A stretch of 64,000 bases of DNA from Thioalkalivibrio paradoxus ARh 1 (GCF_000227685.2 NZ_CP007029.1:966501-1030500), one strand, 5' to 3'. Positions 36,255-48,962 are shown, numbered from the stretch's first letter. Notes: generated from the letters alone by a model not told the origin. A program made the numbers and translations.

Positions 36255-37436
36255 ATGAAGACGAATATGACTCCAAGCAGAGTATTTCTGGCTGCCCTGG
36301 CTGCAGCCGCGTTTGCGCTCGCGGGCGTCGTCCAGGCGCAGTACGGGCGGGTGATCACCGCGGAGGCCGCGGCCGCGGGAGAACAAACGATCAGCGGCAC
36401 GGTGGTGCCATTCCGGGAGGTCACCCTCACGGCGCAGATCGGCGGTCGGGTGACGCTGGTTGCCGGTGCCGAGGGCGATTTCTTCGACCGCGACGAGGTA
36501 TTGGTCGCCATCAGCGACGAGCGTTTGACCGCCCAGCGGCGGCAGGCGCTGGCCGAACTGCGTTCGGCCGAAGCGGCGATGCGCGAGGCGCAGATGCAGT
36601 ACGGCCGGGAGGTTGCGTCGCCGCGGGCGCGCGACATCGGCCAGATGCCGGGCATGGGGATTCCGTCGATGTTCGACCAGCTGGTCACGCGCCCGATGGG
36701 TTCGATGGCGGGGATGGGCGATCCCACGGTCGAGCGGCAGGCGGATCTGTACTCGCGCTACATCGGAATCGACCAGGCCGCGTCGCGCTGGCAGCAGGCA
36801 CGCTCGCGCCTCGAGGAGATCGACTCCGCGATTCGCGATACCCGCTCCGTGGCCCCGTTCTCCGGGCTGATCATGCACAAGCACGTTGAGGAGGGGGACA
36901 CGGTCCAGCCCGGGCACCCGCTCGTGACCTTCGGTCATGTCGAGTTCCTGCGCGTGGAAGCCGATATTCCAGCCCGGCTGGTCGGGCGTCTGCGCGTGGG
37001 CGACATGGTGCGCGTGACCCTCGACGTGGGCAAGACCGAAGTGGATGCGCGGGTCGCGCAGATCTTCCCGATCGCCGATCCGCAGCGGCACACCGTCACC
37101 GTGAAATTCGACCTGCCCCGCGGCGTTCCGGGCGGTCCGGGAATGTATGCAGACGTGCACATTCCGGGGACCGAAGCCACCCCGGGCGTCGTCCGGATTC
37201 CGCTGTCGGCGATCGTCCCGGGGGGGGCCCTTCCCAGGGTGGCCGTGGTCGAACCCGATGGCACGACGCGAGTGCGGATGGTGCGACTGGGCTCCGTGCA
37301 GGGTGACATGGTGACCGTGCTTTCCGGTCTCGAGCCGGGCGACCGGCTGCTGGATTCGCCCGATGCCACGATCCGTTCCGGCGAACGTGTCGAGCCCGGC
37401 ACCGGTCCGCGCCCGTCAGGCCCCCGCTTCCGCTAA
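36255..37436 (+). CDS. RND efflux periplasmic adaptor (MFP)
   Basis: A 393-residue membrane-fusion protein with a signal sequence (VFLAALAAAAFALAGVVQAQ). Lipoyl half VTLTAQIGGRVTLVAGAEGD, alpha-hairpin EEIDSAIRDT, second lipoyl half VAPFSGLIMHKHVEEGDTV and beta-barrel IPLSAIVPGGALPRVAVVEP. Odd: the hairpin contains a Met/Gly-rich stretch (residues ~125-155, including GQMPGMGIPSMF and RPMGSMAGMG), unusual for adaptors and suggestive of metal or hydrophobic contacts. The pump gene follows after 96 bp. No outer-membrane factor gene is nearby. Confidence 0.88.
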   Translation: MKTNMTPSRVFLAALAAAAFALAGVVQAQYGRVITAEAAAAGEQTISGTVVPFREVTLTAQIGGRVTLVAGAEGDFFDRDEVLVAISDERLTAQRRQALAELRSAEAAMREAQMQYGREVASPRARDIGQMPGMGIPSMFDQLVTRPMGSMAGMGDPTVERQADLYSRYIGIDQAASRWQQARSRLEEIDSAIRDTRSVAPFSGLIMHKHVEEGDTVQPGHPLVTFGHVEFLRVEADIPARLVGRLRVGDMVRVTLDVGKTEVDARVAQIFPIADPQRHTVTVKFDLPRGVPGGPGMYADVHIPGTEATPGVVRIPLSAIVPGGALPRVAVVEPDGTTRVRMVRLGSVQGDMVTVLSGLEPGDRLLDSPDATIRSGERVEPGTGPRPSGPRFR

Positions 37437-37532
37437 CCCCCGCTAGCCGCTGGGCCGGGAGCCGGCCCACCAGGAGGAGTTGCGGCCGTTCCCGGCCGCA
37501 CCGGGACACAAAGAACGAGACTGATAACAACC

Positions 37533-40500
37533 ATGTCCGAGCAAAAAACTCAGCAGGCAGGCGAAGGCCAGGAACCCGAAAAGGATCTCGGCCTCGCCGG
37601 CCGGATGGCCCAGAGCTTCATTCACTCTCCGCTGTCTCCGCTACTCCTGCTGGCGACGCTGGCCATTGGTGTGCTGGGTTTGATCATCACCCCGCGCCAG
37701 GAGGATCCGCAGATCTCGGTGCCGATGGTCGACGTCTTCGTGTCCTACCCGGGGGTTCCGTCGGAACAGGTGGCCAGCCTGGTCGCGCGGCCGCTGGAAC
37801 GCCTGATGAGCGAGATGTCCGGGGTCGACAACGTGTACTCGATCTCGCACCGCGGTCAGGCGATGGTCACGGTGCAGTTCGATGTCGGCGAGGAAATGGA
37901 ATCCTCGATCGTGAAGGTGCATGACAAGCTGATGTCGAACCGGGATCTGATGCCGCCCGGGGTGTCGGAGCCGATGGTCAAGCCGAAGGGTGTCGATGAC
38001 GTCCCGACCGTCACACTGACCCTTTGGTCGCATGATCTCGACGACGCGCTGCTTCGACAGATTGCGCTGGATAGCCTGCAATACCTGAACGAGGTGCCGA
38101 ATACCTCCCAGAGCTTCGTGGTCAGCGGGCGCGAGGAAATGGTGCGGGTGGAAGTCCAGCCGGAGCGCCTTGCCGGCCACAACGTGACGATGGAGCAGAT
38201 CGCTCAGGCGCTACAGGCCGCGAACTCCGAACGGACCGCCGGCAGCGTCGAGATCGGCGCGACCAGCACCCCGATCTACACCGGTGCGTTCCTTCGGGAC
38301 GCCGAGGATATCGGCCGCATCCTGGTTACCGTCGAGGAAGGGCGTCCCGTCTACGTCCGCGACGTGGCGGAAGTGATCTACGGACCCGGCGAAGTCGACC
38401 GCTTCGTGCGCTATTACACCGGCGTCGCGGGCCACCATGCCGACGAGGCGCCCGAGGGCGCCGCCGCGGTCACGATCGCCATTGCGAAGAAGGAAGGCAG
38501 CAACGGCGTGGCCGTGGCCAACGGCATCCTCGAGCGGCTGGAGATGCTCAAGGGGCAGGTCATTCCCGACAACGTCGAGGTTTCCGTTACCCGCAACTAC
38601 GGCGAGACTGCGAACGCGAAGGTGAACGAGCTGATGTTCAAGCTGTTCATCGCGACCGCCGCGGTGACGGTGCTGGTGTTCATCTTCCTCGGTCTGCGGG
38701 CAGCGGTGGTGGTGCTGATCGTGATCCCGGTCGTGCTGCTGTTCACCGTGTTCAGCGCCTGGCTGATGGGGTACACCATCGACCGGGTCAGCCTGTTCGC
38801 GCTGATCTTTGCGATCGGTATCCTCGTCGACGACGCGATCGTGGTGGTCGAGAACATCTATCGCCGCTGGCTGATGAAACGCGGCGTTGACACCGAGACG
38901 ACGGTGGACGCGGTGGCCGAGGTCGGCAACCCGACCATTCTCGCGACCTTTACCGTCATCGCGGCGCTGCTGCCAATGGGTTTCGTGACCGGCATGATGG
39001 GCCCGTACATGCAGCCGATCCCAGCGCTGGGTTCGGTGGCGATGCTGTTCTCGCTGGTGGCGGCCTTCCTGTTCACGCCCTGGCTTGCGTGGCGCCTGCG
39101 CCCGACGATCGACTACCTGCAGCGGGCCGAGGAGAAGGAACACAAGCAGAACGAGATGATGGGGCGGTTCTTTTCCAAGGCCATCCCCGGGCTCGTGCAC
39201 AACCGTGTGTACGGTTGGGGGTTCCTGATCGGGATCGTCGTGGTGTTCTTTCTCACCGTGATGCTGTTCTTCACCAAGGATGTTTCGGTGAAGATGCTGC
39301 CGCTGGACAACAAGCCCGAATTCAACGTGGTGATCAACTTCCCGGAGGGCACTGCACTGCCGCGCACGGCGACGCTCACCCATGATCTCGCGATGGTGCT
39401 CCGCGAACTGCCCGAGGTGACGGCCGTTCAGGCCTACGTCGGGACTGCCTCGCCGTTCAACTTCAACGGTCTGGTGCGGCATTATTATCTGCGCCAGGAA
39501 CCCTGGCAGGCCGATATCCAGGTTCAGCTCGTCGACAAGGGCGACCGCAAGAGGAGCAGTCACGAGATCGCGGTCGAGGCGCGCGAGATTCTTGCCCCGA
39601 TCGCCCACGCCGCCGGTGCGCGGGTCCAGGTCGTCGAGATGCCGCCCGGTCCGCCGGTACTGCAATCGGTGGTGGCGGAAGTCTACGGGCCCGAGCCCGA
39701 GATTCGCCGCCGCGTTGCGCGGGATCTCGAACGCATGTTCGATAACGCACCGCATCTCGACGACGTCGACAGCTTCCTGCAGGCGCAGTACGACGTCTGG
39801 CACTTCATCGTGGAACGCGACAAGGCGTTGCGTCGGGGCGTGACGGTCGACGCGGTCAACCGTACGCTCGAGACCGCGGTCGGCGGCCAAATCGTCGGCG
39901 ACGTGAAGGCCCGGTCGCTGGTCGAGCCGCATCTGATCCAGATCCGCCTGCCGATGGTCGTGCGCTCGGATCTGCAGCGACTGCTGTTGCTGCCGGTGCC
40001 GAACATGGCCGGAGGCTCGGTGCCTTTATCGGAGCTGGGTGAGTTCGTGCGCCTGCCCCAGGACGAACCGATCTTCCACAAGAATCTGCGGCCGGTCGAG
40101 TACGTGACCGCCGAGACGGTGGGCCGCCTGGCGGCGCCGATCTATGGCATGCTCGAGGTTCAGGAGCAGTTGAAGGAATACCGCCTGCCTGGCGGAGGCG
40201 AACTCAAGCCTCACTGGGTGGGGCCGCCCCCGAACGACGGCAACGTAGCGTTCGAGTGGGCGGGCGAGTGGACGGTCACCTACGAGACCTTCCGCGATAT
40301 GGGCATCGCATTCGCGATCGCACTGGTGCTGATCTACATGCTGGTCGTCTGGGAGTTCGGAAACTTCCTGTTGCCGGCCATCGTAATGGCTCCGATCCCG
40401 CTGACGCTGATCGGGATCATTCCCGGCCACTGGCTGCTCGGAGCCGAATTCACCGCGACCTCGATGATCGGTTTTATCGCACTCGCAGGAATCATCGTCC

Positions 40501-41567
40501 GGAACTCGATCCTGTTGGTGGACTTCGCGCGGCATCAGGTGGCGGAAGGGCAGTCGGTGATGGACGCGATGATTAACGCCTGCCAGGCGCGCACTCGGCC
40601 GATCCTGATCACCGCGTTCGCGCTGCTCGCGGGTTCCAGCGTGATTCTGTTCGATCCGATCTTCCAGGGCATGGCCATCTCGCTGATGTTCGGCACGATC
40701 GTCGCCACGCTGCTGACTCTGCTGGTCATTCCTCTCGGCTGCATCAGTGCCCGACGCACCTTGGAGGCGAACGCGGCCGGTGGGGGTTCCGGAGGTGCCG
40801 CCGCGTGTGCCGTGCAGACCGAACCGAACGGTGAGCCAGATCAGGGAGGCCCCAGGTTCCCGTCCAGTACGAAGATGACCGACCCGGCGGGTGGCCCCGT
40901 GATGAAGTTCATCGGGTTGACCGGTCTCTATCTGCGGTCGCTGGCAGCCAGCTTTGTCGAAGGTGTGGTGCAGCTGTTGCGTGCGCTTGCACGCTGGATC
41001 CTGCGTCTGGTGGGGGGCGGTGACGGTCCGCGGCCAGGCGGTGGCGGTCCTGCGGCGCCTCCGGATGGCGGTGGTGGTGGCGGCCCTGCCGGGGGTACTC
41101 CCCGCGGAGATGCGCCATCGGGTGCACAGGGGACGCAGGCGGAACCCGGCGAGCACGGCGAATCGCGCGGTCGTGCCGAGGCGCCGGAGCATCGGTCCGA
41201 AAACGAGCCGCAACCCGACCGCAAACGCAGTGCCGGCAGTGGACGCGCCGGGGCCGAAAACACCGAAAAGGCCCCATCAGGCACTGCCGTCCCGGCCGCC
41301 GACGAGGAACCGAAGGCGACCCGCGCATCTACCGGACAAGAGCCCCCAACCAGGCGCGCTTCCAAACCGGCTTCGGGGCGGGCCAAGCCCAGGGCGGACG
41401 CAGATGCCGAGGCGTCTGCGTCCAAGGGCGGGGCTCGGCTGGGCAGCACCGACCACAGCACCGGGGCCCACGAGGCAGAATCCGACGATGATGAAGCCGC
41501 CAAAGGCGCGTCGTCGGGTTCCGCAGCAAGCGGTGCTCGCCGCCGGCGCGGCATTCGCTTGAAATGA
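37533..41567 (+). CDS. RND-superfamily transporter with ~270-residue C-terminal extension
   Basis: A 1344-residue inner-membrane proton-driven pump; RND permeases are usually ~1030-1070. TM1 is LSPLLLLATLAIGVLGLII; the porter domain starts ISVPMVDVFVSYPGVPSEQV; TM4 carries the proton-relay Asp pair in FAIGILVDDAIVVVENIY; a second half repeats the fold, ending near residue 1070 (SLMFGTIVATLLTLLVIPLG). Beyond that comes a hydrophobic patch (FVEGVVQLLRALARWILRLV) and a Gly/Pro/Ala/Glu/Lys-rich disordered tail to RRRRGIRLK. The tail is in frame, GC-rich but not repeated elsewhere. Substrate unknown. Confidence 0.9.
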   Translation: MSEQKTQQAGEGQEPEKDLGLAGRMAQSFIHSPLSPLLLLATLAIGVLGLIITPRQEDPQISVPMVDVFVSYPGVPSEQVASLVARPLERLMSEMSGVDNVYSISHRGQAMVTVQFDVGEEMESSIVKVHDKLMSNRDLMPPGVSEPMVKPKGVDDVPTVTLTLWSHDLDDALLRQIALDSLQYLNEVPNTSQSFVVSGREEMVRVEVQPERLAGHNVTMEQIAQALQAANSERTAGSVEIGATSTPIYTGAFLRDAEDIGRILVTVEEGRPVYVRDVAEVIYGPGEVDRFVRYYTGVAGHHADEAPEGAAAVTIAIAKKEGSNGVAVANGILERLEMLKGQVIPDNVEVSVTRNYGETANAKVNELMFKLFIATAAVTVLVFIFLGLRAAVVVLIVIPVVLLFTVFSAWLMGYTIDRVSLFALIFAIGILVDDAIVVVENIYRRWLMKRGVDTETTVDAVAEVGNPTILATFTVIAALLPMGFVTGMMGPYMQPIPALGSVAMLFSLVAAFLFTPWLAWRLRPTIDYLQRAEEKEHKQNEMMGRFFSKAIPGLVHNRVYGWGFLIGIVVVFFLTVMLFFTKDVSVKMLPLDNKPEFNVVINFPEGTALPRTATLTHDLAMVLRELPEVTAVQAYVGTASPFNFNGLVRHYYLRQEPWQADIQVQLVDKGDRKRSSHEIAVEAREILAPIAHAAGARVQVVEMPPGPPVLQSVVAEVYGPEPEIRRRVARDLERMFDNAPHLDDVDSFLQAQYDVWHFIVERDKALRRGVTVDAVNRTLETAVGGQIVGDVKARSLVEPHLIQIRLPMVVRSDLQRLLLLPVPNMAGGSVPLSELGEFVRLPQDEPIFHKNLRPVEYVTAETVGRLAAPIYGMLEVQEQLKEYRLPGGGELKPHWVGPPPNDGNVAFEWAGEWTVTYETFRDMGIAFAIALVLIYMLVVWEFGNFLLPAIVMAPIPLTLIGIIPGHWLLGAEFTATSMIGFIALAGIIVRNSILLVDFARHQVAEGQSVMDAMINACQARTRPILITAFALLAGSSVILFDPIFQGMAISLMFGTIVATLLTLLVIPLGCISARRTLEANAAGGGSGGAAACAVQTEPNGEPDQGGPRFPSSTKMTDPAGGPVMKFIGLTGLYLRSLAASFVEGVVQLLRALARWILRLVGGGDGPRPGGGGPAAPPDGGGGGGPAGGTPRGDAPSGAQGTQAEPGEHGESRGRAEAPEHRSENEPQPDRKRSAGSGRAGAENTEKAPSGTAVPAADEEPKATRASTGQEPPTRRASKPASGRAKPRADADAEASASKGGARLGSTDHSTGAHEAESDDDEAAKGASSGSAASGARRRRGIRLK

Positions 41568-41603: not shown

Positions 41604-42218
41604 ATGAAGCATGAAGTGAGCAAGCGTTTCGGCAAGTTTTCCCTGACCGCACTGGCCGTGGCCACGGCGTTCGCACTCGCGGGTGGCGCTCAGGCAGAGG
41701 AAGGGCAGGAAAAGACCGCTGCCGGCTACGGTTACGGCGTTCCGGCCTATGGCCAGGCTCCGATGGGCTACGGCCCGCGTCACGGCTATGGCCCGCGTGA
41801 GGGCTTTGGTCCCCGGCATGGCTATGGAATGCCGCCGCGCCCGGACTTCATGGATCGTGAAAGGCCGGCGTTCGAACCGCCGCCCTGGGTCCGCGAGGGT
41901 TACCCCGCCGAGATGCCGGAGATGTCCGAGGAGATGAAGGCGCTGATGGCCGAGCGCGAGGAGCGCATGAAGGAAATCGAAGCCGAGCGCAAGGCGTACA
42001 TGGAGAAGATGGAAGCCGAGCGCAAGGAGTACATGGAGCAGATGGAAGCGATGCACGAGGCGCGCATGAAGGCGATGGAGGCCGGGCGCGCGGCCTATAT
42101 GGAAGAAATGGAACGGCAGCGCAAAGAGATCATGAAAATGATGGAAGAGCGCCGCAAGGGAATGGAAGAGCGTGGCGCGGACCGCGGCGGGTACGGCTAC
42201 GCCCCGGCCGCCGAGTAA
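41604..42218 (+). CDS. exported GYG-repeat / Met-Glu coiled-coil protein
   Basis: A 204-residue secreted protein. Signal peptide (LTALAVATAFALAGGAQA), then a Gly/Tyr/Pro-rich region (AAGYGYGVPAYGQAPMGYG, HGYGPREGFGPRHGYG), then from ~residue 110 a long charged coiled coil with repeated KxYMExMExx units (RKAYMEKMEAERKEYMEQME), and a final GGYGYAPAAE. The mix of Gly/Tyr repeats and coiled coil resembles coat or scaffold proteins. No domain family recognised. It starts 36 bp after the RND gene and may share its transcript. Confidence 0.75.
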   Translation: MKHEVSKRFGKFSLTALAVATAFALAGGAQAEEGQEKTAAGYGYGVPAYGQAPMGYGPRHGYGPREGFGPRHGYGMPPRPDFMDRERPAFEPPPWVREGYPAEMPEMSEEMKALMAEREERMKEIEAERKAYMEKMEAERKEYMEQMEAMHEARMKAMEAGRAAYMEEMERQRKEIMKMMEERRKGMEERGADRGGYGYAPAAE

Positions 42219-42288
42219 GCGCAGCGCTTGGCGCTGCGGGTGACCGCGACGATGCGGTTACCCGCGGCGTGACAGGAGATCGGGGGCG

Positions 42289-42831
42289 ATGAACGATAGG
42301 GCAGCGGATCGCGCAACGCGACTGGCGCCACGCTGGGCGTTTGGGCCGTGCATTGCGCTCTGCCTGTTGCTGGGAGGGGATGTCCCGGCCCGCGATCGCA
42401 ATCCCTGGGCGGTCCCGGACCATCGGCCTCCGGCACCGACCTATCAGCCCTATAATGATGGACGGTTTGCCCCGCCGGAATATGACCCGACTTTTGATCG
42501 ACGTCGGCCCAGGGACCCCGTAGCTCCACTGACCCAGCCCGGTACGCGCTATGACGAGATGCTGCGCCACACGCCCGGCATTTCGTATGGACTGCAAGCG
42601 CCGGGTGTTGCGGGTACGCTCTACCCGGGGCTTGGGGACAGCTACGGGCTGTTGTCGCCCTGGTCGCTGGGGTACCCGGGGCTCGGTCTTTATCCGGGGC
42701 TGCTTCCGTACGGAGGCTATCCGGGTAGTAGTATGCTCTATCCTGGAACCGGTCTTGGTACGTCCGGGCTGTTGTCGCCGCTCTACGGATCTCCACTGGG
42801 CACCGTTCCGCTGTTTGGACTCCACTATTGA
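42289..42831 (+). CDS. exported Pro/Gly/Leu/Tyr-rich protein
   Basis: A 180-residue protein with a likely signal or anchor (APRWAFGPCIALCLLLGGD) and a low-complexity mature part: PDHRPPAPTYQPYNDGRFA, then repeats of YPGLG, LLSP and YGS type (LGYPGLGLYPGLLPYGGYPG). No family recognised. Its composition and its place between two Gly/Tyr-rich exported proteins suggest a shared surface or globule role. The start at 42289 has GGGGGCG upstream, a weak ribosome site. Confidence 0.6.
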   Translation: MNDRAADRATRLAPRWAFGPCIALCLLLGGDVPARDRNPWAVPDHRPPAPTYQPYNDGRFAPPEYDPTFDRRRPRDPVAPLTQPGTRYDEMLRHTPGISYGLQAPGVAGTLYPGLGDSYGLLSPWSLGYPGLGLYPGLLPYGGYPGSSMLYPGTGLGTSGLLSPLYGSPLGTVPLFGLHY

Positions 42832-42942: not shown

Positions 42943-43302
42943 ATGAGTAAGATCGTTAAGGCAGTTGTTCTGGCTGCGTCCCTTGGTGCCCTTTCCGCGG
43001 CCCCGATGATGGCTTCGGCGCAGTGGGGTGGTCCCGGTGGCTGGGGTGGTCCTGGCGGCTGGGGTGGGCCGGGGTATGGATACGGCGGCCCCGGCTACGG
43101 CTACGGCCCGGGGTATGGTCGCGGTCTGGGTGACATGTTCGGCTTCGGCGACATGTTCAGCGACTTCGACTTCTCGGCTCGCGGTACCGGCCGCGGTCAC
43201 GGCTACGGCCGCGGCTACGGTGATGCCTACGGCTATGGCCAACCCTACGGGTACGGGCCGGGTCACGGCTACGGCCCCGGCTACGGTGGCCCGCGCTGGT
43301 AA
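42943..43302 (+). CDS. sulfur-globule-type protein
   Basis: A 119-residue exported protein: signal peptide ([20 protein letters not shown]), then GWGGPG repeats, [12 protein letters not shown], the family-like core [19 protein letters not shown], and [16 protein letters not shown] repeats to the end. The GDMF...DFDF core between Gly/Tyr arrays is characteristic of sulfur globule envelope proteins (Sgp) of purple and colourless sulfur bacteria, which coat periplasmic sulfur deposits. Start at 42943 has TGGAGG upstream. A strong terminator follows. Identification from composition and core motif. Confidence 0.8.
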
Positions 43303-43319
43303 GCTCGCCGTAAGTGCAG

Positions 43320-43350
43320 CCTGCCCGGTCTCGACCGGGCAGGTTCTTTC
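43320..43350 (+). terminator. Rho-independent terminator after the sulfur-globule-type gene
   Basis: A perfect 10-bp stem (CCTGCCCGGT at 43320-43329, ACCGGGCAGG at 43334-43343) with a 4-nt loop CTCG, followed by TTCTTTC. It separates the globule-type gene from parA, so parA needs its own promoter or read-through. Confidence 0.85.
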
Positions 43351-43374
43351 CACTTTGTCGTATCGAGGCCGTGC

Positions 43375-44010
43375 ATGCTGACAGTGATTGGCAACCTCAA
43401 GGGTGGCACCGGCAAGAGTACGGTCGCGTTCAACCTGGCACTGTGGGTGCTGAGCAACAAGCGTACGGTCTTGGCTGTCGACCTCGATCCGCAGGCGACG
43501 CTGACCGATGTGATTCGTGTGCGTGAAGAAGAAGGTTATTCGCCGTCGCTGGAGCTGTCGCAGAGCCTAGAAGAAGCCCTGCACGCGAGCGACAAGTATC
43601 AAGAGATCATCGTCGATGTCGGCCCCTCCGACCTCGGCACCATGTATGCGGCGATCCTCGCGGCCGACCAGGTCGTGATTCCGGTGCCGCCGAGCCAGGC
43701 GGATGTCTGGTCCACGCAGCGCTTTGTGCGCAAGATCCTGGAACTGCGCGGCGACCGGGAGAAGCCCGAGATCGTCGGGTTCATCAACCGTGCCGATACC
43801 CACCAGGCCGTGCGCGAGTCGGACGAGGCCTTTGGTGCTTTGGGTATGATCGACGGCCTGAGGGCGGTACGCCCGCGCCTGCGCCAGCGTATGGCCTTTC
43901 GCCGCTCGTTCAGCGAGGGGCTGTCGGTGCACGAGCTGGAGCGCCGGGGTAAGGCAGCGCACGAGCTGGATGAGTTGGCCAGGGCGCTCTTCCGAAAGTC
44001 CCGCCGGTGA
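43375..44010 (+). CDS. orphan ParA/MinD-type ATPase
   Basis: A 211-residue ParA-superfamily ATPase. Deviant Walker A KGGTGKST (9-16), Walker A' DLDPQ (36-40), Walker B-type IIVDVGPSD, and PVPPSQADVWSTQRFV. No N-terminal HTH, so it is the short type that positions cargo such as chemoreceptors, carboxysomes or conjugation machinery rather than a plasmid ParA. No parB or parS is nearby. It is followed by membrane proteins and a dynamin-like GTPase. Partner unknown; possible partners are the adjacent membrane proteins. Confidence 0.9.
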   Translation: MLTVIGNLKGGTGKSTVAFNLALWVLSNKRTVLAVDLDPQATLTDVIRVREEEGYSPSLELSQSLEEALHASDKYQEIIVDVGPSDLGTMYAAILAADQVVIPVPPSQADVWSTQRFVRKILELRGDREKPEIVGFINRADTHQAVRESDEAFGALGMIDGLRAVRPRLRQRMAFRRSFSEGLSVHELERRGKAAHELDELARALFRKSRR

Positions 44011-44049
44011 TACCGGGGGGTTCCCATGCACAACCGATGTAGGTGACTC

Positions 44050-45093
44050 ATGTCTGCGGTACGCACTTTCTTGCGGAAGTACTGGATCCTGCTCGTCATT
44101 CTGCTCTGGGTGATTGCCTGGGCCAACCGGGACTGGCTGGCGGGAGGCACTGCGTCGGATTCAGCCCCAGCGGAGATGACTACCGAGGCGGCGGCGGTTC
44201 CGGATGAACCCGAAGCGGTAGCCGAAGCCCCGGCGCCGGCAGTGCCGGACGAGCCTGATACGGTGGCCGAGGCCCCGGTGCCGGCAGTGCCGGACGAGCC
44301 TGATGCGGTGGCCGAGGCCGCTGCGCCGGCAGTGCCGGACGAGCCCGACGCGGTGGCCGAGGCCCCGGCGCCGGCCGGTCCGGACGAAACCGCAGCGGTA
44401 GCCGAAGCCCCAGCGCCGGCAGTGCCGGACGAGCCTGAGACGGTGGCCGAGGCCGCTGCGCCGGCGGTTCCGGAGGAGCCTGAGACGGTGGCCGAGGCCC
44501 CGGCGCCGGCAGTGCCGGAGGAGCCCGAGGCGGCGGTCGAAGCCCCGGCGCCGGCAGTGCCGGAGGAGCCCGAGGCGGCGGTCGAAGCCCCGGCGCCGGC
44601 AGTGCCGGAGGAGCCTGAGACGGTGGCCGAGGCCCCTGCGCCGGCAGTGCCGGAGGAGCCTGAGACGGTGGCCGAGGCCCCGGCGCCGGCAGTGCCGGAT
44701 GAGCCCGAGGCGGCGGTCGAAGCCCCGGCGCCGGCAGTGCCAGAGGAGCGCGACGCGGTTGCTGACGCCGATGCCCCCGGAGTGGTCGCGTCTGCGGATC
44801 TTCTTGCCGAAGCTCGGTCGGCCTTTCGCAGCCGCGGGCCGCGTGCGGCGGCGCAGGTGCTGGCAGCGGGTCTGGAGGGCGTCGCGCCCGATGCGCCCGA
44901 GCGGGCCGACCTCTATGGTGAGTTGGGCAATTTCCATTTCGCGGCGGGAGACACTCGCCGCGCACTCGCTGCGTTTGATGACGCGCTGCGGGCGCTGCCC
45001 GAGAACGAGCGGGCGTCGATGCTGCGGCGTCTTGCTCCTGTCTACGACCGTTTCCATCCGTCCGGCCGCGCATATCTGGAGCGATTCAGGTAG
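44050..45093 (+). CDS. membrane-anchored Pro/Ala/Glu repeat protein with C-terminal TPR
   Basis: A 347-residue protein. An N-terminal anchor (WILLVILLWVIAWA, residues ~12-26) follows the charged start MSAVRTFLRKY. Residues 49-243 are 13 near-perfect 15-residue repeats of the type AVPDEPEAVAEAPAP, an extended acidic Pro/Ala spacer like that of TonB. The C-terminal ~100 residues look like a TPR pair (AAAQVLAAGL ... LYGELGNFHFAAGDTRRALA). An inner-membrane protein with a long rod reaching a folded TPR tip; topology ambiguous. It starts 39 bp after parA. Confidence 0.8.
   Translation: MSAVRTFLRKYWILLVILLWVIAWANRDWLAGGTASDSAPAEMTTEAAAVPDEPEAVAEAPAPAVPDEPDTVAEAPVPAVPDEPDAVAEAAAPAVPDEPDAVAEAPAPAGPDETAAVAEAPAPAVPDEPETVAEAAAPAVPEEPETVAEAPAPAVPEEPEAAVEAPAPAVPEEPEAAVEAPAPAVPEEPETVAEAPAPAVPEEPETVAEAPAPAVPDEPEAAVEAPAPAVPEERDAVADADAPGVVASADLLAEARSAFRSRGPRAAAQVLAAGLEGVAPDAPERADLYGELGNFHFAAGDTRRALAAFDDALRALPENERASMLRRLAPVYDRFHPSGRAYLERFR
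44194..44778 (+). repeat. 13 x 45-bp tandem repeat inside the rod/TPR gene
   Basis: Thirteen in-frame 45-bp units (15 codons each) encode the acidic Pro/Ala rod. Several neighbouring units are identical at DNA level, for example two successive EEPEAAVEAPAPAVP units, showing recent expansion by slippage or unequal crossing-over. The copy number probably varies between strains. Confidence 0.85.
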
Positions 45094-45191
45094 AATATTA
45101 GGAGGTTCTGAAATGGTGGGCGGCAAGCAGGGCAGCCTCAACCGGGGGCCGAGCCCCGGCGCTTATCGGTCGCCGACGACGGGGATGCTGG

Positions 45192-45779
45192 ATGCGGTTG
45201 GTGCGGAACGTGCTCGCCCTGGTGGGGCTGCTAACGCTGGTGGCGATCGGTGGCCTGATCCTCGTCCTCGAGCCCTATATGCACAAGGTGCGCAGCCTCG
45301 ATGAGGCTGCGCTCGGCGTTTATTCCGAGGTTGCACGAACGATACTTGCCACCGGTGATCCGACGGCGGCACTCGTCTACCAGCGCAGTGTCGCAGCCGG
45401 GCTCACGGTTGCGGATGTCGAGATTGCGCTTGGCAGGGCCGCCGAGGCGGCGGACCTGCACACACTGGGAGCGCTGTCGGTCGATCGGCAGGTGCGGAAC
45501 CGGGCGGGCGTGGGGTTTCCGTTCCTGAAGGTCTACCTGTTCTGCGAACCCGAGCTGGCTGCGGACCTGATCCGCCATACCACGGCGATGGCGGCGTTTC
45601 TTCCCTGCAGGATCATCTTGCACGAGGATGAACGTGGTGGGCTCTGGCTGATGACGCCGAATCTCGACCTGGTGATTCATGGCGGCCGACCCTTGCCGAT
45701 CGCGCTGCAGGAGCGCGCGCTGGGTCTGCAGTCGACGCTGCGGGAGATCGTGGACCGCGCTGCGGCGGGTGATGATTGA
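45192..45779 (+). CDS. membrane-anchored DUF302-domain protein
   Basis: A 195-residue protein: N-terminal hydrophobic helix (VLALVGLLTLVAIGGLILVL), a ~90-residue middle and a C-terminal DUF302-type domain (YLFCEPELAADLIRHTTAMA, FLPCRIILHEDERGGLWLMT). DUF302 folds are found in sulfur and stress proteins of unknown mechanism; two Cys are in this domain. A strong AGGAGG at 45100 precedes a different, overlapping ORF, while this ATG at 45192 has only a weak GGGGA. Part of the ParA-dynamin run. Confidence 0.75.
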   Translation: MRLVRNVLALVGLLTLVAIGGLILVLEPYMHKVRSLDEAALGVYSEVARTILATGDPTAALVYQRSVAAGLTVADVEIALGRAAEAADLHTLGALSVDRQVRNRAGVGFPFLKVYLFCEPELAADLIRHTTAMAAFLPCRIILHEDERGGLWLMTPNLDLVIHGGRPLPIALQERALGLQSTLREIVDRAAAGDD

Positions 45780-45833
45780 ACCCGGCCGGCGGCATCGCCG
45801 AGCCCCTATTCCATTTTGGCTGGAACTGACGTA

Positions 45834-46376
45834 ATGAGTGAATTCGACTATCGTAACGACGCCCGGCACGTGGATCCGGACGAGTACGACGTACGTTCCC
45901 GACGACTGCAGTTGATCGTCTATTCTTCGCTGGTCGCGTTCGTGGTGCTCGCGGTGTACGGGTTCTGGCTGATCACAAGCCTGACCCGGGACGTGAGCCG
46001 TCTCGCGATCGAGATGTCGGCGATGACCCGGACGATCGACCGGGAGATGACGGTGATGGCGGCGAAGATGGGCGACATCGACGAACGCATGGTGTACATC
46101 AACGAGAACATGGTCTCCATGAACGAAAATATGCTCGCGATGAACCGCAACATCGCCTCGATGACCCGGGACATCGGCACGATGAACGTCAATATCCGCT
46201 CGATGTCTTCGGACACGAAGACCATGGCGGGGTCGACCCTGCACATGCAGCGCGACATGTGGAGTCTGAACCGCAACGTGTCGGGCCCGCTCGGCATGAT
46301 GAATTCGTTCAACCCGTTCAGTGGCAATCCCGGTCCGTTCCCTGGATCGCCGGCCCCGTTCTTTCCCCAGCACTGA
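45834..46376 (+). CDS. membrane-anchored coiled-coil protein
   Basis: A 180-residue protein: cytoplasmic N-terminus (DYRNDARHVDPDEYDVRSRR), one span (LIVYSSLVAFVVLAVYGFWLI), then a long regular coiled coil with repeated Met/Asn/Glu heptads (DERMVYINENMVSMNENMLA, MNRNIASMTRDIGTMNVNI) to about residue 150, and a Pro/Phe-rich tail (GNPGPFPGSPAPFFPQH). No family recognised; it resembles methyl-accepting or tether-type coiled coils. Start at 45834. It precedes the dynamin-like gene by 45 bp and could be its membrane tether. Confidence 0.72.
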   Translation: MSEFDYRNDARHVDPDEYDVRSRRLQLIVYSSLVAFVVLAVYGFWLITSLTRDVSRLAIEMSAMTRTIDREMTVMAAKMGDIDERMVYINENMVSMNENMLAMNRNIASMTRDIGTMNVNIRSMSSDTKTMAGSTLHMQRDMWSLNRNVSGPLGMMNSFNPFSGNPGPFPGSPAPFFPQH

Positions 46377-46421
46377 GGCCGTCGCCAGGGCGGCCCTCCA
46401 GACCTACGACACGGAGCTTGC

Positions 46422-47957
46422 ATGTTCAACCGTCCCGGCAACCGAGTGAGTCAGCAACTAAGTCGCCTCAGCAACCGTCTGTCGGAGGAAAACCCGGCGC
46501 TGGAAGGGGTTGTGAGCCCATTCCAGGCCCTGGACCGGGTCGGATACGCGGCGGGCCTGCTCGATCCGGAGGAAGAGTCTTACGCCTTCACCATTTCCTG
46601 GTGGCCGATGATCGCGGTGCTTGGCACCTTCTCGGCCGGCAAGTCGACGTTCATCAACGAGTACATCGGAACCACGGTACAGCGCAGCGGGAGCCAGGCG
46701 GTCGACGACCGTTTCACCGTGATCAGCTATGGCACCAGCGACAAGGTCCAGGAGCTTCCCGGGCTGGCGCTGGATGGCGATCCGCGGTTTCCGTTCTACC
46801 GGGTCAGCGACGAGATCGAACGGCTCAGTGACGGAGGAGGCCGCACGGTCGATCATTTCCTGGCGATGAAAACGGTTCGATCCGAGCGCCTGCGGGGGCG
46901 CATTCTGATCGACTCGCCGGGATTCGATGCCGACGAGCAGCGGGCGACGATCCTGCAGCTGACCGACCACATCATCGATCTGTCGGATCTGGTGCTGGTC
47001 TTCTTCGACGCCCGGCATCCGGAACCCGGTGCGATGCGCGACACGCTCGAACACCTCGTCAATCGTGTCGCGGCACGCAATGACTTCACCAAGCTGGTGT
47101 TCATCCTGAACCAGATCGACACGACCTGGCGCGAGGACAACCTCGAGGAAGTGGTATCGGCCTGGCAGCGGGCCGTGGTGCGTCAGGGCACGGCGACCGG
47201 CCGCTTTTACTGCCTGTACAACCCGAGCGCGGCGGTCGAGATCGGCGACGAGAAGGTACGCGCGCGCTACGAGTACAAGTCGGCCCAGGACCGGGAGGAG
47301 ATTCACCACAAGATCGCCGAGATCAGTTCTTCGCGTTCCTACCGCATCGTCGGGGCGATGCAGGCCATCGCCGAGTCGATCGAGATGGACGCCCTGCCGG
47401 CGCTGACACGCGCACTCGGCCGCTGGCGTCGGCGCGTCGTGCAGGCGAACGCGCTGTTGATGGGCGTGGTACTGGCGGTGGCGATCTGGGCCGGCCAGTC
47501 GCTGACCGGCGGCTTCGCTCCGTGGTTCGATGGCACCCTGACCCAGTCGATGCGGGACCACCCGGTGATTTCGACCTTGGTGGTGCTGCTTTTCGCAGGC
47601 GTGCTTCTCGGGATCCATTATTTCAATCGTGGCTGGGTCGCGCAGCGCATCGCGCGGACGCTGCCAAACGAAACCGCGTCCGGAAACTGGCGCGCGGCGT
47701 TTCTTCGCAACACGGCCTTCTGGCGTTCGATCTTCCTCAAGGCGCCGGCAGGGCTGGGACGGGGCGCGATCCGGCAGCTCCATGCGCTGCGTGAACAGGC
47801 CGAGACCTACGTGCAGCGCCTCAACGATCAGTTCATGGATGAAGGGCATCCACCGTCCGCGACGGAGCCGGCCCATGCGGCGGCGCCTTCCGGTCAGCGC
47901 GAGCAGCCGGCGCCAGACGCGGGAGGCCGTGCCGCACGCTCCGATGCCGCGGGGTAG
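46422..47957 (+). CDS. dynamin-like GTPase with two membrane segments
   Basis: A 511-residue large GTPase. G1 GTFSAGKST (68-76), G2-type Thr near 100, G3 DSPGF (164-168), G4 NQID (230-233; NQ replaces NK). Two hydrophobic helices (~343-359 and ~382-400) form a hairpin or paddle that inserts in the membrane, and the C-terminal ~110 residues are helical (EQAETYVQRLNDQFMDEG), then disordered. This is bacterial-dynamin architecture, used for membrane remodelling. Not linked to a second dynamin. Last large gene of the ParA run. Confidence 0.85.
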   Translation: MFNRPGNRVSQQLSRLSNRLSEENPALEGVVSPFQALDRVGYAAGLLDPEEESYAFTISWWPMIAVLGTFSAGKSTFINEYIGTTVQRSGSQAVDDRFTVISYGTSDKVQELPGLALDGDPRFPFYRVSDEIERLSDGGGRTVDHFLAMKTVRSERLRGRILIDSPGFDADEQRATILQLTDHIIDLSDLVLVFFDARHPEPGAMRDTLEHLVNRVAARNDFTKLVFILNQIDTTWREDNLEEVVSAWQRAVVRQGTATGRFYCLYNPSAAVEIGDEKVRARYEYKSAQDREEIHHKIAEISSSRSYRIVGAMQAIAESIEMDALPALTRALGRWRRRVVQANALLMGVVLAVAIWAGQSLTGGFAPWFDGTLTQSMRDHPVISTLVVLLFAGVLLGIHYFNRGWVAQRIARTLPNETASGNWRAAFLRNTAFWRSIFLKAPAGLGRGAIRQLHALREQAETYVQRLNDQFMDEGHPPSATEPAHAAAPSGQREQPAPDAGGRAARSDAAG

Positions 47958-48056
47958 CGGCGGCATCAGGTCCTCGCAACGGTTGACCGTAGGTGCTAAA
48001 TGCGCATAAAATAAAGGGTTTAGAGAATACCCGCGCGATCGGGCAGGAGCGATACG

Positions 48057-48218
48057 ATGACAATTCTGGCATGGATCATGTTTGTTCTGGCGATGGTTTT
48101 GGTCCCGGTCTCAGTATGGGCGAGCCTCGCGGCCCTTGGGGTTTGTGCAGGTTGCGCGCTGGTCCGGGACTGGCGGCGCGATCGAGAACTGGAGACACCG
48201 CAGGGTAAGGGTGTCTGA
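48057..48218 (+). CDS. 53-residue membrane protein
   Basis: A short ORF with CAGGAGCG 8 nt before its ATG at 48057. It encodes two adjacent hydrophobic stretches (ILAWIMFVLAMVLVPVSVWA, SLAALGVCAGCALV) then a charged end RDWRRDRELETPQ. No family recognised. It lies between the dynamin-like gene and dsrE2. Support is the ribosome site and the membrane pattern. Confidence 0.5.
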   Translation: MTILAWIMFVLAMVLVPVSVWASLAALGVCAGCALVRDWRRDRELETPQGKGV

Positions 48219-48298
48219 GCAGAAAATGCCTGGTTGTCGTAGATGCCGGATTCGCGCCTGAGCGTCAGGCAGGCGGATCTTCTCGGTCTCGCCGGTTG

Positions 48299-48337
48299 CG
48301 CGCCGCAGCAGGTTTGAACCAACCCTGCTGCGGCGCG
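48299..48337. promoter_or_regulatory. strong inverted repeat upstream of dsrE2
   Basis: Perfect 14-bp arms (CGCGCCGCAGCAGG at 48299-48312, CCTGCTGCGGCGCG at 48324-48337) around an 11-nt loop, about 155 bp before dsrE2. No U-tract follows, so it is either a terminator for the upstream small gene or a leader-RNA structure; which is unclear. Confidence 0.5.
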
Positions 48338-48491
48338 GTGCTGTAATCGCAGGACCAGGGCCCGGCGGGATCAGTTCGGTTCCGGCCCAGACCGGAGCCG
48401 TAGCGGGCCGGCCGGTTTCTTCGGGAATTCCGTGGCGGTTGTCGTTTCGGGCGCCACGCCGTACATCGACCAAAGTTTGGGGATATTCGAC

Positions 48492-48962
48492 ATGAGTGAC
48501 AGCAAGAAACTGGCCATTATCGCGACCAAGGGCAGCCTGGACTGGGGGTATCCCCCGTTCATCCTGGCTTCCACCGCGGCAGCGCTCGGGTACGACGTTG
48601 AGGTGTTCTTCACGTTCTACGGGCTGCAGCTCCTGAAGAAGAAGATGGATCTGCAGGTCAGCTCGCTCGGTAACCCGGGCATGCCGATGCCAATGCCCGT
48701 GCCGGTTCTGCTCCAGGCGCTTCCGGGCATGCAGCGCATGATGACGGTGATGATGAAGCAGAAAATGAAGGCCAAGGGGGTTGCGAGCCTGGAGGACCTG
48801 CGCGAACTCTGCATGGAAGCGGAAGTCCGCATGATTGCTTGTCAGATGACGGTGGATCTGTTCGAGATGGATACTGGCGAATTCATCGACGGTGTCGAGT
48901 ACGCCGGGGCTGCCGCGTTCTTCGAGTTCGCCGGCGAAGCCGATATCTGCCTGTTCATCTGA
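48492..48962 (+). CDS. DsrE2-family protein
   Basis: A 156-residue protein of the DsrE/DsrF/DrsH group: LAIIATKGSLDWGYPPFILA, VEVFFTFYGLQLLKKK, PGMPMPMPVPVLLQALPG, then ELCMEAEVRMIACQMTVDLF with conserved Cys107 and Cys117 and DGVEYAGAAAFFEFA. DsrE2 proteins handle cytoplasmic sulfur atoms with TusA and rhodanese in sulfur oxidisers, and C117 is in the family's active position. rhd-tusA neighbours are absent here. ATG at 48492; strong terminator after. Confidence 0.87.
   Translation: MSDSKKLAIIATKGSLDWGYPPFILASTAAALGYDVEVFFTFYGLQLLKKKMDLQVSSLGNPGMPMPMPVPVLLQALPGMQRMMTVMMKQKMKAKGVASLEDLRELCMEAEVRMIACQMTVDLFEMDTGEFIDGVEYAGAAAFFEFAGEADICLFI

Follow-up and report, generated by a model that had tools for sequence, protein, structure and literature searches.

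We analyzed a gene cluster of Thioalkalivibrio paradoxus ARh 1 in which a gene for a sulfur-globule-type protein (SGP) lies upstream of a gene for a ParA ATPase. Positions refer to the window, the whole 64,000-nt stretch of this genome that was analyzed; the block under study occupies 42943-48962 (Table 1). A sequence-only reading had listed on one strand, in this order, SGP, ParA, a membrane rod with TPR repeats, a membrane DUF302 protein, a membrane coiled coil, a dynamin-like GTPase, a small membrane protein and DsrE2, and had suggested that together they might position, segregate or enclose sulfur globules. Every one of these genes is present on the plus strand, and domain searches back the assignments of SGP, ParA, DUF302, Dynamin_N and DsrE2; the membrane rod at 44050-45093 is present too, but its TPR match is weak (best 21.7 bits versus a cut-off of 25). 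The unit extends upstream of the block to an MFP-RND pump (36255-41567) and two genes for secreted Pro/Gly/Tyr-rich proteins (41604-42831), which are conserved together with it in Thioalkalivibrio. Gene order is kept in nearly all loci of the genus with sufficient contig, and the arrangement in the window is thus not due to chance. Judged from the sequence comparisons described below, the core of the system is SGP, ParA and the coiled-coil protein, usually located behind an RND pump.

Table 1. Genes and other features of the ParA-SGP locus, in window coordinates
Feature	Position	Strand	Basis or remark
RND periplasmic adaptor (MFP)	36255..37436	+	TIGR01730, 151.9 bits, above cut-off, reading from 36231; the start at 36255 is an ATG of our choosing
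RND (HAE-type) permease	37533..41567	+	RND_permease_2, 440 bits, under the subfamily cut-off of 1250; long low-complexity extension at the C-terminus
Secreted Gly/Tyr-rich protein, C-terminal charged coiled coil	41604..42218	+	Directly behind the RND gene
Secreted Pro/Gly/Tyr-rich protein	42289..42831	+	Kept across the genus; no match in a Pfam search
Sulfur-globule-type protein (SGP)	42943..43302	+	Signal peptide and GGPGYGYG repeats
Terminator-like hairpin	43318..43345	+	Between sgp and parA; RNA fold
ParA ATPase, 211 aa	43375..44010	+	Deviant Walker A, KGGTGKST
Single-pass membrane protein	44050..45093	+	Rod of Pro/Glu/Val repeats with a TPR-like domain at the C-terminus; periplasmic by prediction
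Single-pass membrane protein with DUF302	45192..45779	+	PF03625, 47.3 bits
Transmembrane and coiled-coil protein	45834..46376	+	Proposed ParA partner
Dynamin-like GTPase	46422..47957	+	PF00350 (Dynamin_N), 57.4 bits; C-terminal membrane hairpin; accessory
Small membrane protein, 53 aa	48057..48218	+	Kept across the genus
Sulfur carrier DsrE2	48492..48962	+	NF047629 equivalog, 291.8 bits versus a cut-off of 210; lineage-specific neighbor

To place the window in a broader context, we surveyed 274 genomes of Gammaproteobacteria, with one to three taken from each family, and read the neighborhoods around parA by hidden Markov model and signal-peptide scans. The coiled-coil gene occurs in 57 of these genomes, this ParA subtype in 50 and SGP (PF17228) in 43; calls of absence depend on assembly quality. 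ParA and SGP are found together in 39 genomes versus 7.8 expected (both/ParA only/SGP only/neither, 39/11/4/220; p 1e-32), in statistics that ignore kinship and draw on families that are not fully independent. The association holds within genomes that carry dsrA (94 at >100 bits, 87 of them over the curated cut-off; 35/10/4/45, p 2e-12). ParA itself is present in 45 of the 94 dsrA-positive genomes and in only 5 of the 180 that are dsrA-negative, so that it is not common in bacteria lacking this marker.

Physical linkage follows the same pattern. Of 37 genomes outside the genus, 12 have a Pfam-recognized SGP gene ≤3 kb upstream of parA, versus 0.05 expected at random (P 8e-26), and the number of families in which the two genes are neighbors is at least 10 by Pfam and 18 by composition. 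In 18 families beyond that of the window, same-strand genes upstream of parA encode Gly/Tyr-rich proteins with signal-peptide-like N-termini, and control scans for secreted Gly/Tyr-rich ORFs on the opposite strand and downstream of parA returned 0. Given this co-occurrence and linkage in many families, the connection to globules is now supported by more than the single neighborhood from which it was first suggested; the composition of the system differs from the one then envisaged. Nor is it weakened by the terminator between sgp and parA. This hairpin has a 12-bp stem followed by TTCTTT and a good predicted fold (-30.7 kcal/mol, z -2.6), and a consensus terminator scanner did not list it.

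The window's SGP has the features of its family: a signal peptide, Gly/Tyr-rich repeats and a match to PF17228, which scores 24.2 bits when the protein is searched alone (cut-off 26.7) and 27.8 bits with neighboring stretches in a genome scan. Among the parA-linked Gly/Tyr-rich proteins in alignment A5, 16 of 21 match PF17228 at E 1e-3; SGP detection throughout relies on a low-complexity model. Three more SGP genes are located elsewhere in the window's genome (G000:C1:1285101, 1602245 and 1687474), with PF17228 scores above that of the parA-linked copy.

The ParA of the window matches AAA_31, CbiA and MipZ above cut-off, and NF041546 ("ParA family partition ATPase") at 128 bits, under the cut-off of 180. 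K9, G10, G11, K14, S15/T16, D36, D38 and D81 are present in all 76 homologues, as are R172 and R176; four hits of ~40% identity in another gene context (L203, L204, L205 and L208) form a divergent subgroup and were excluded from these counts. By these motifs the protein is an ATPase with an intact deviant Walker A, including the signature lysine, and intact Walker A' and B motifs, and its basic, conserved C-terminal stretch R168-R177 is no more than suggestive of binding to the nucleoid (non-specific DNA) or to membrane. No second ParA was found in the window's genome at E 1e-25.

The closest solved structures are of ParF/ParA (4dzz, 5u1g), and the resemblance to small plasmid ParA/ParF proteins such as TP228 ParF (4dzz), in length (~206-211 aa) and in ATPase motifs, raises the question of whether the locus is an ordinary ParA-ParB-parS cassette for DNA partition on an integrated element. 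We regard this as highly improbable and reject it: the gene is chromosomal, its best plasmid matches are ~36% identical whereas chromosomal loci of other families reach a median of 50-53%, and its genomic linkage is to sgp. Moreover, no parB-like, ParG-like or small DNA-binding partner gene lies behind parA, either in the window's block or among the loci that were read out (parS sites were not searched for).

The tightest co-occurring partner of ParA is the coiled-coil protein, present in 47 of the 50 ParA genomes (47/3/10/214, p 3e-39); the sequence-only reading had listed this gene but gave it too little weight. Of the 39 gammaproteobacterial loci with sufficient sequence, 22 have it behind parA; several loci lack either the coiled coil or the RND gene. 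The protein consists of a short, basic cytoplasmic tail, a near-invariant transmembrane segment, a long Met/Asn-rich helix and a C-terminal Pro motif. The tail motif SA(R/K)RWE(L/M)IVYP is conserved before the membrane segment, R24 is found in 97% of 58 homologues, and the C-terminus carries RPM..(M/I)N.FMPW or a related motif. AlphaFold2 models a single helix over residues 15-149 (mean pLDDT 70). Because more Lys and Arg lie on the N-terminal side of the membrane segment, the rod is predicted to project into the periplasm. We propose that this protein is the ParA-binding, ATPase-stimulating partner. Outside Thioalkalivibrio, the cytoplasmic tail often contains a CxxC pair, or else one Cys (L156, L193, L261, L264, L266, L271 and L273), which may serve in redox or metal chemistry; the window's protein lacks this feature.

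In three Thioalkalivibrio loci (L051, L056 and L063), parA, the DUF302 gene and the coiled-coil gene have been lost jointly, while a divergent Gly/Tyr protein and the TPR, GTPase, small-protein and DsrE2 genes are retained.

The arrangement recurs in a second proteobacterial class. A phylum-wide sample contained 39 strong ParA matches outside Gammaproteobacteria; most of these we take to be Magnetococcia, one of them possibly Magnetococcus marinus MC-1. In their loci RND comes first, followed by the secreted Gly/Tyr-rich proteins, parA and the coiled coil: of the loci with sufficient sequence, 14 of 18 have SGP-like genes in front of parA, and the coiled coil comes directly after parA in 18 of 20. 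In a ParA tree, of which only the branching among block ParAs was used because the four outgroup rows, meant to represent other ParA-type genes of the window's genome, had been read in the wrong strand or frame, most second-class sequences form one clade, joined by two from a single gammaproteobacterial family, and two others (L256 and L267, the only second-class loci in which we found the GTPase) sit beside Thioalkalivibrio. Sulfur globules are present in many magnetotactic cocci (PMC6783814), and a cultured relative has been reported to form them (PMC5088516).

These distributions also bear on whether the cluster could serve general envelope stress or polarity in sulfidic habitats, with no role in globules and an association produced by ecology and shared ancestry. 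The GTPase, RND and DUF302 genes are indeed more widely or patchily distributed, and the incomplete independence of the sampled families leaves room for such an account. We nevertheless consider it improbable, given the number of families in which SGP stands beside parA, the persistence of the association within dsrA-positive genomes and its recurrence in a second class.

Together, gene content, linkage, co-occurrence and predicted architecture make it somewhat more likely than not, in our estimation, that this is a ParA-based system for positioning periplasmic sulfur globules, for sharing them out between daughter cells, or for both. A more specific version, to which we give slightly less than an even chance, is that a cytoplasmic ParA positions a periplasmic globule across the inner membrane by way of a membrane-anchored coiled-coil tether, a trans-envelope ParA system shared by sulfur-storing bacteria of two classes, magnetotactic cocci among them. 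ParA-ATP dimers would bind the nucleoid, and the tail of the coiled-coil protein would bind ParA and stimulate its ATPase. The rod would span the periplasm and attach to the globule coat, either by itself or via the TPR and DUF302 proteins, allowing a ParA gradient to space or segregate globules on the other side of the membrane. As weak guesses, the GTPase, where present, may remodel the inner membrane where it surrounds globules, and handling of the coat or of sulfur may fall to the RND pump.

Cargos of many kinds are positioned by ParA/MinD ATPases, whose partner proteins, although diverse, are believed to have a common way of stimulating the ATPase (PMC10241942). Sulfur globules, including those of Thioalkalivibrio, are periplasmic and coated by secreted proteins (PMC10386293). 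In the McdAB system that positions carboxysomes, as here, an orphan ParA-type ATPase is encoded beside genes for a protein-coated inclusion, and a proposed partner links the ATPase to its cargo; here, in contrast, that partner would be a membrane coiled coil and the cargo would be periplasmic. McdA itself shows no more than weak sequence similarity (6noo, 40.8 bits, partial), and in place of carboxysome genes and McdB the neighbors are RND, SGP, TPR, DUF302, coiled coil, GTPase and DsrE2.

Several observations weigh against a positioning role. Globules are described as "randomly localised" in many species, and an Allochromatium vinosum sgpD mutant has normal globules (PMC10386293). Some SGP-positive loci have the coiled coil without ParA (L158, L159, L144 and L180), and 49 dsrA-positive genomes lack ParA. 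Globules can thus exist without ParA, and, with the tether kept in its absence, the module is evidently not needed for sulfur storage as such. In addition, the co-occurrence figures are uncorrected for species kinship.

A different function for the same genes would be to build globules rather than to move them: ParA and the coiled coil would place the RND pump and a site of coat export or assembly, so that globules start at defined sites on the envelope. The MFP-RND pump and several secreted Pro/Gly/Tyr-rich proteins are conserved upstream as much as SGP is, with RND preceding parA in 18 of 23 loci from Gammaproteobacteria and in 12 of 17 from elsewhere (each with at least 7 kb upstream) and MFP preceding RND in other families as well. 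A. vinosum sgpD likewise adjoins a hydrophobic/amphiphilic exporter, and its product has a predicted coiled coil (PMC10386293). By position and architecture, the protein encoded at 41604..42218 is a possible counterpart of SgpD, whose homologues have been reported almost only in Chromatiaceae. We nonetheless find this alternative unlikely, as ParA proteins whose cargo is known move it or set its spacing, the coiled coil is shaped like a tether, and in one locus (L272) the pump is on the opposite strand.

Positioning of cargo by ParA is known as a kind; what would be new, if globule positioning is correct, is the cargo and the arrangement across a membrane. SgpA-D of A. vinosum are, like the proteins described here, secreted Gly/Tyr-rich coat-type proteins, with SgpD beside an exporter (PMC10386293), but no ParA or tether was reported for them in the literature searched. 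That search, which covered subscription papers only in small part, also found no system for globule positioning or inheritance and no description of a system that joins ParA or dynamin to sulfur globules. Globules can reach one third of cell dry weight (PMC10386293), and sulfur-storing cells would, if the proposal is true, actively position or share out these stores. A conserved ParA-tether-coat module would make globule placement a directly testable question and would bring an extracytoplasmic inclusion under ParA-type cargo control.

Two members of the block that had been regarded as part of the system are not specific to it. We rejected DsrE2 as a core part, since its gene is linked to the locus only in Thioalkalivibrio and one near relative (L146). 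The GTPase was likewise rejected, being widespread without ParA or sulfur genes: it occurs in 68 of the 274 Gammaproteobacteria, including 21 of the 180 dsrA-negative genomes (ParA, 5; SGP, 4), it stands alone in Wenzhouxiangella contigs and in Thiorhodospira sibirica, and it is mostly absent from the Magnetococcus-type loci. Its Dynamin_N domain is well above threshold (57 bits versus a cut-off of 27). The closest solved structures are the dynamin-related EHD4 and EHD2, which share a GTPase domain and membrane association; the match is weak and confined to the nucleotide-binding region, the window's protein has a C-terminal transmembrane hairpin, and AlphaFold2 models its G domain at pLDDT <50. 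Proteins 70-76% identical to it are encoded alone at L047, L048 and L050, on contigs labeled Wenzhouxiangella or unnamed Gammaproteobacteria, which suggests horizontal transfer or a broader role.

The remaining neighbors vary more. Where sufficient downstream sequence is available, 15 of 39 gammaproteobacterial loci encode DUF302; none of those from the other class does. A secreted protein of ~210-290 aa ("FSAQAVQ...MFVG...R.EY"), absent from the window, is encoded between RND and the parA or TPR gene in L144, L156, L158, L159, L193 and L264. Genes for transmembrane-TPR proteins resembling the window's follow parA in other families, and the rod of the window's protein, a tandem APAVPEEPEAVAE repeat (44180-44760; "PAVPEEPE" repeats), varies in length among relatives.

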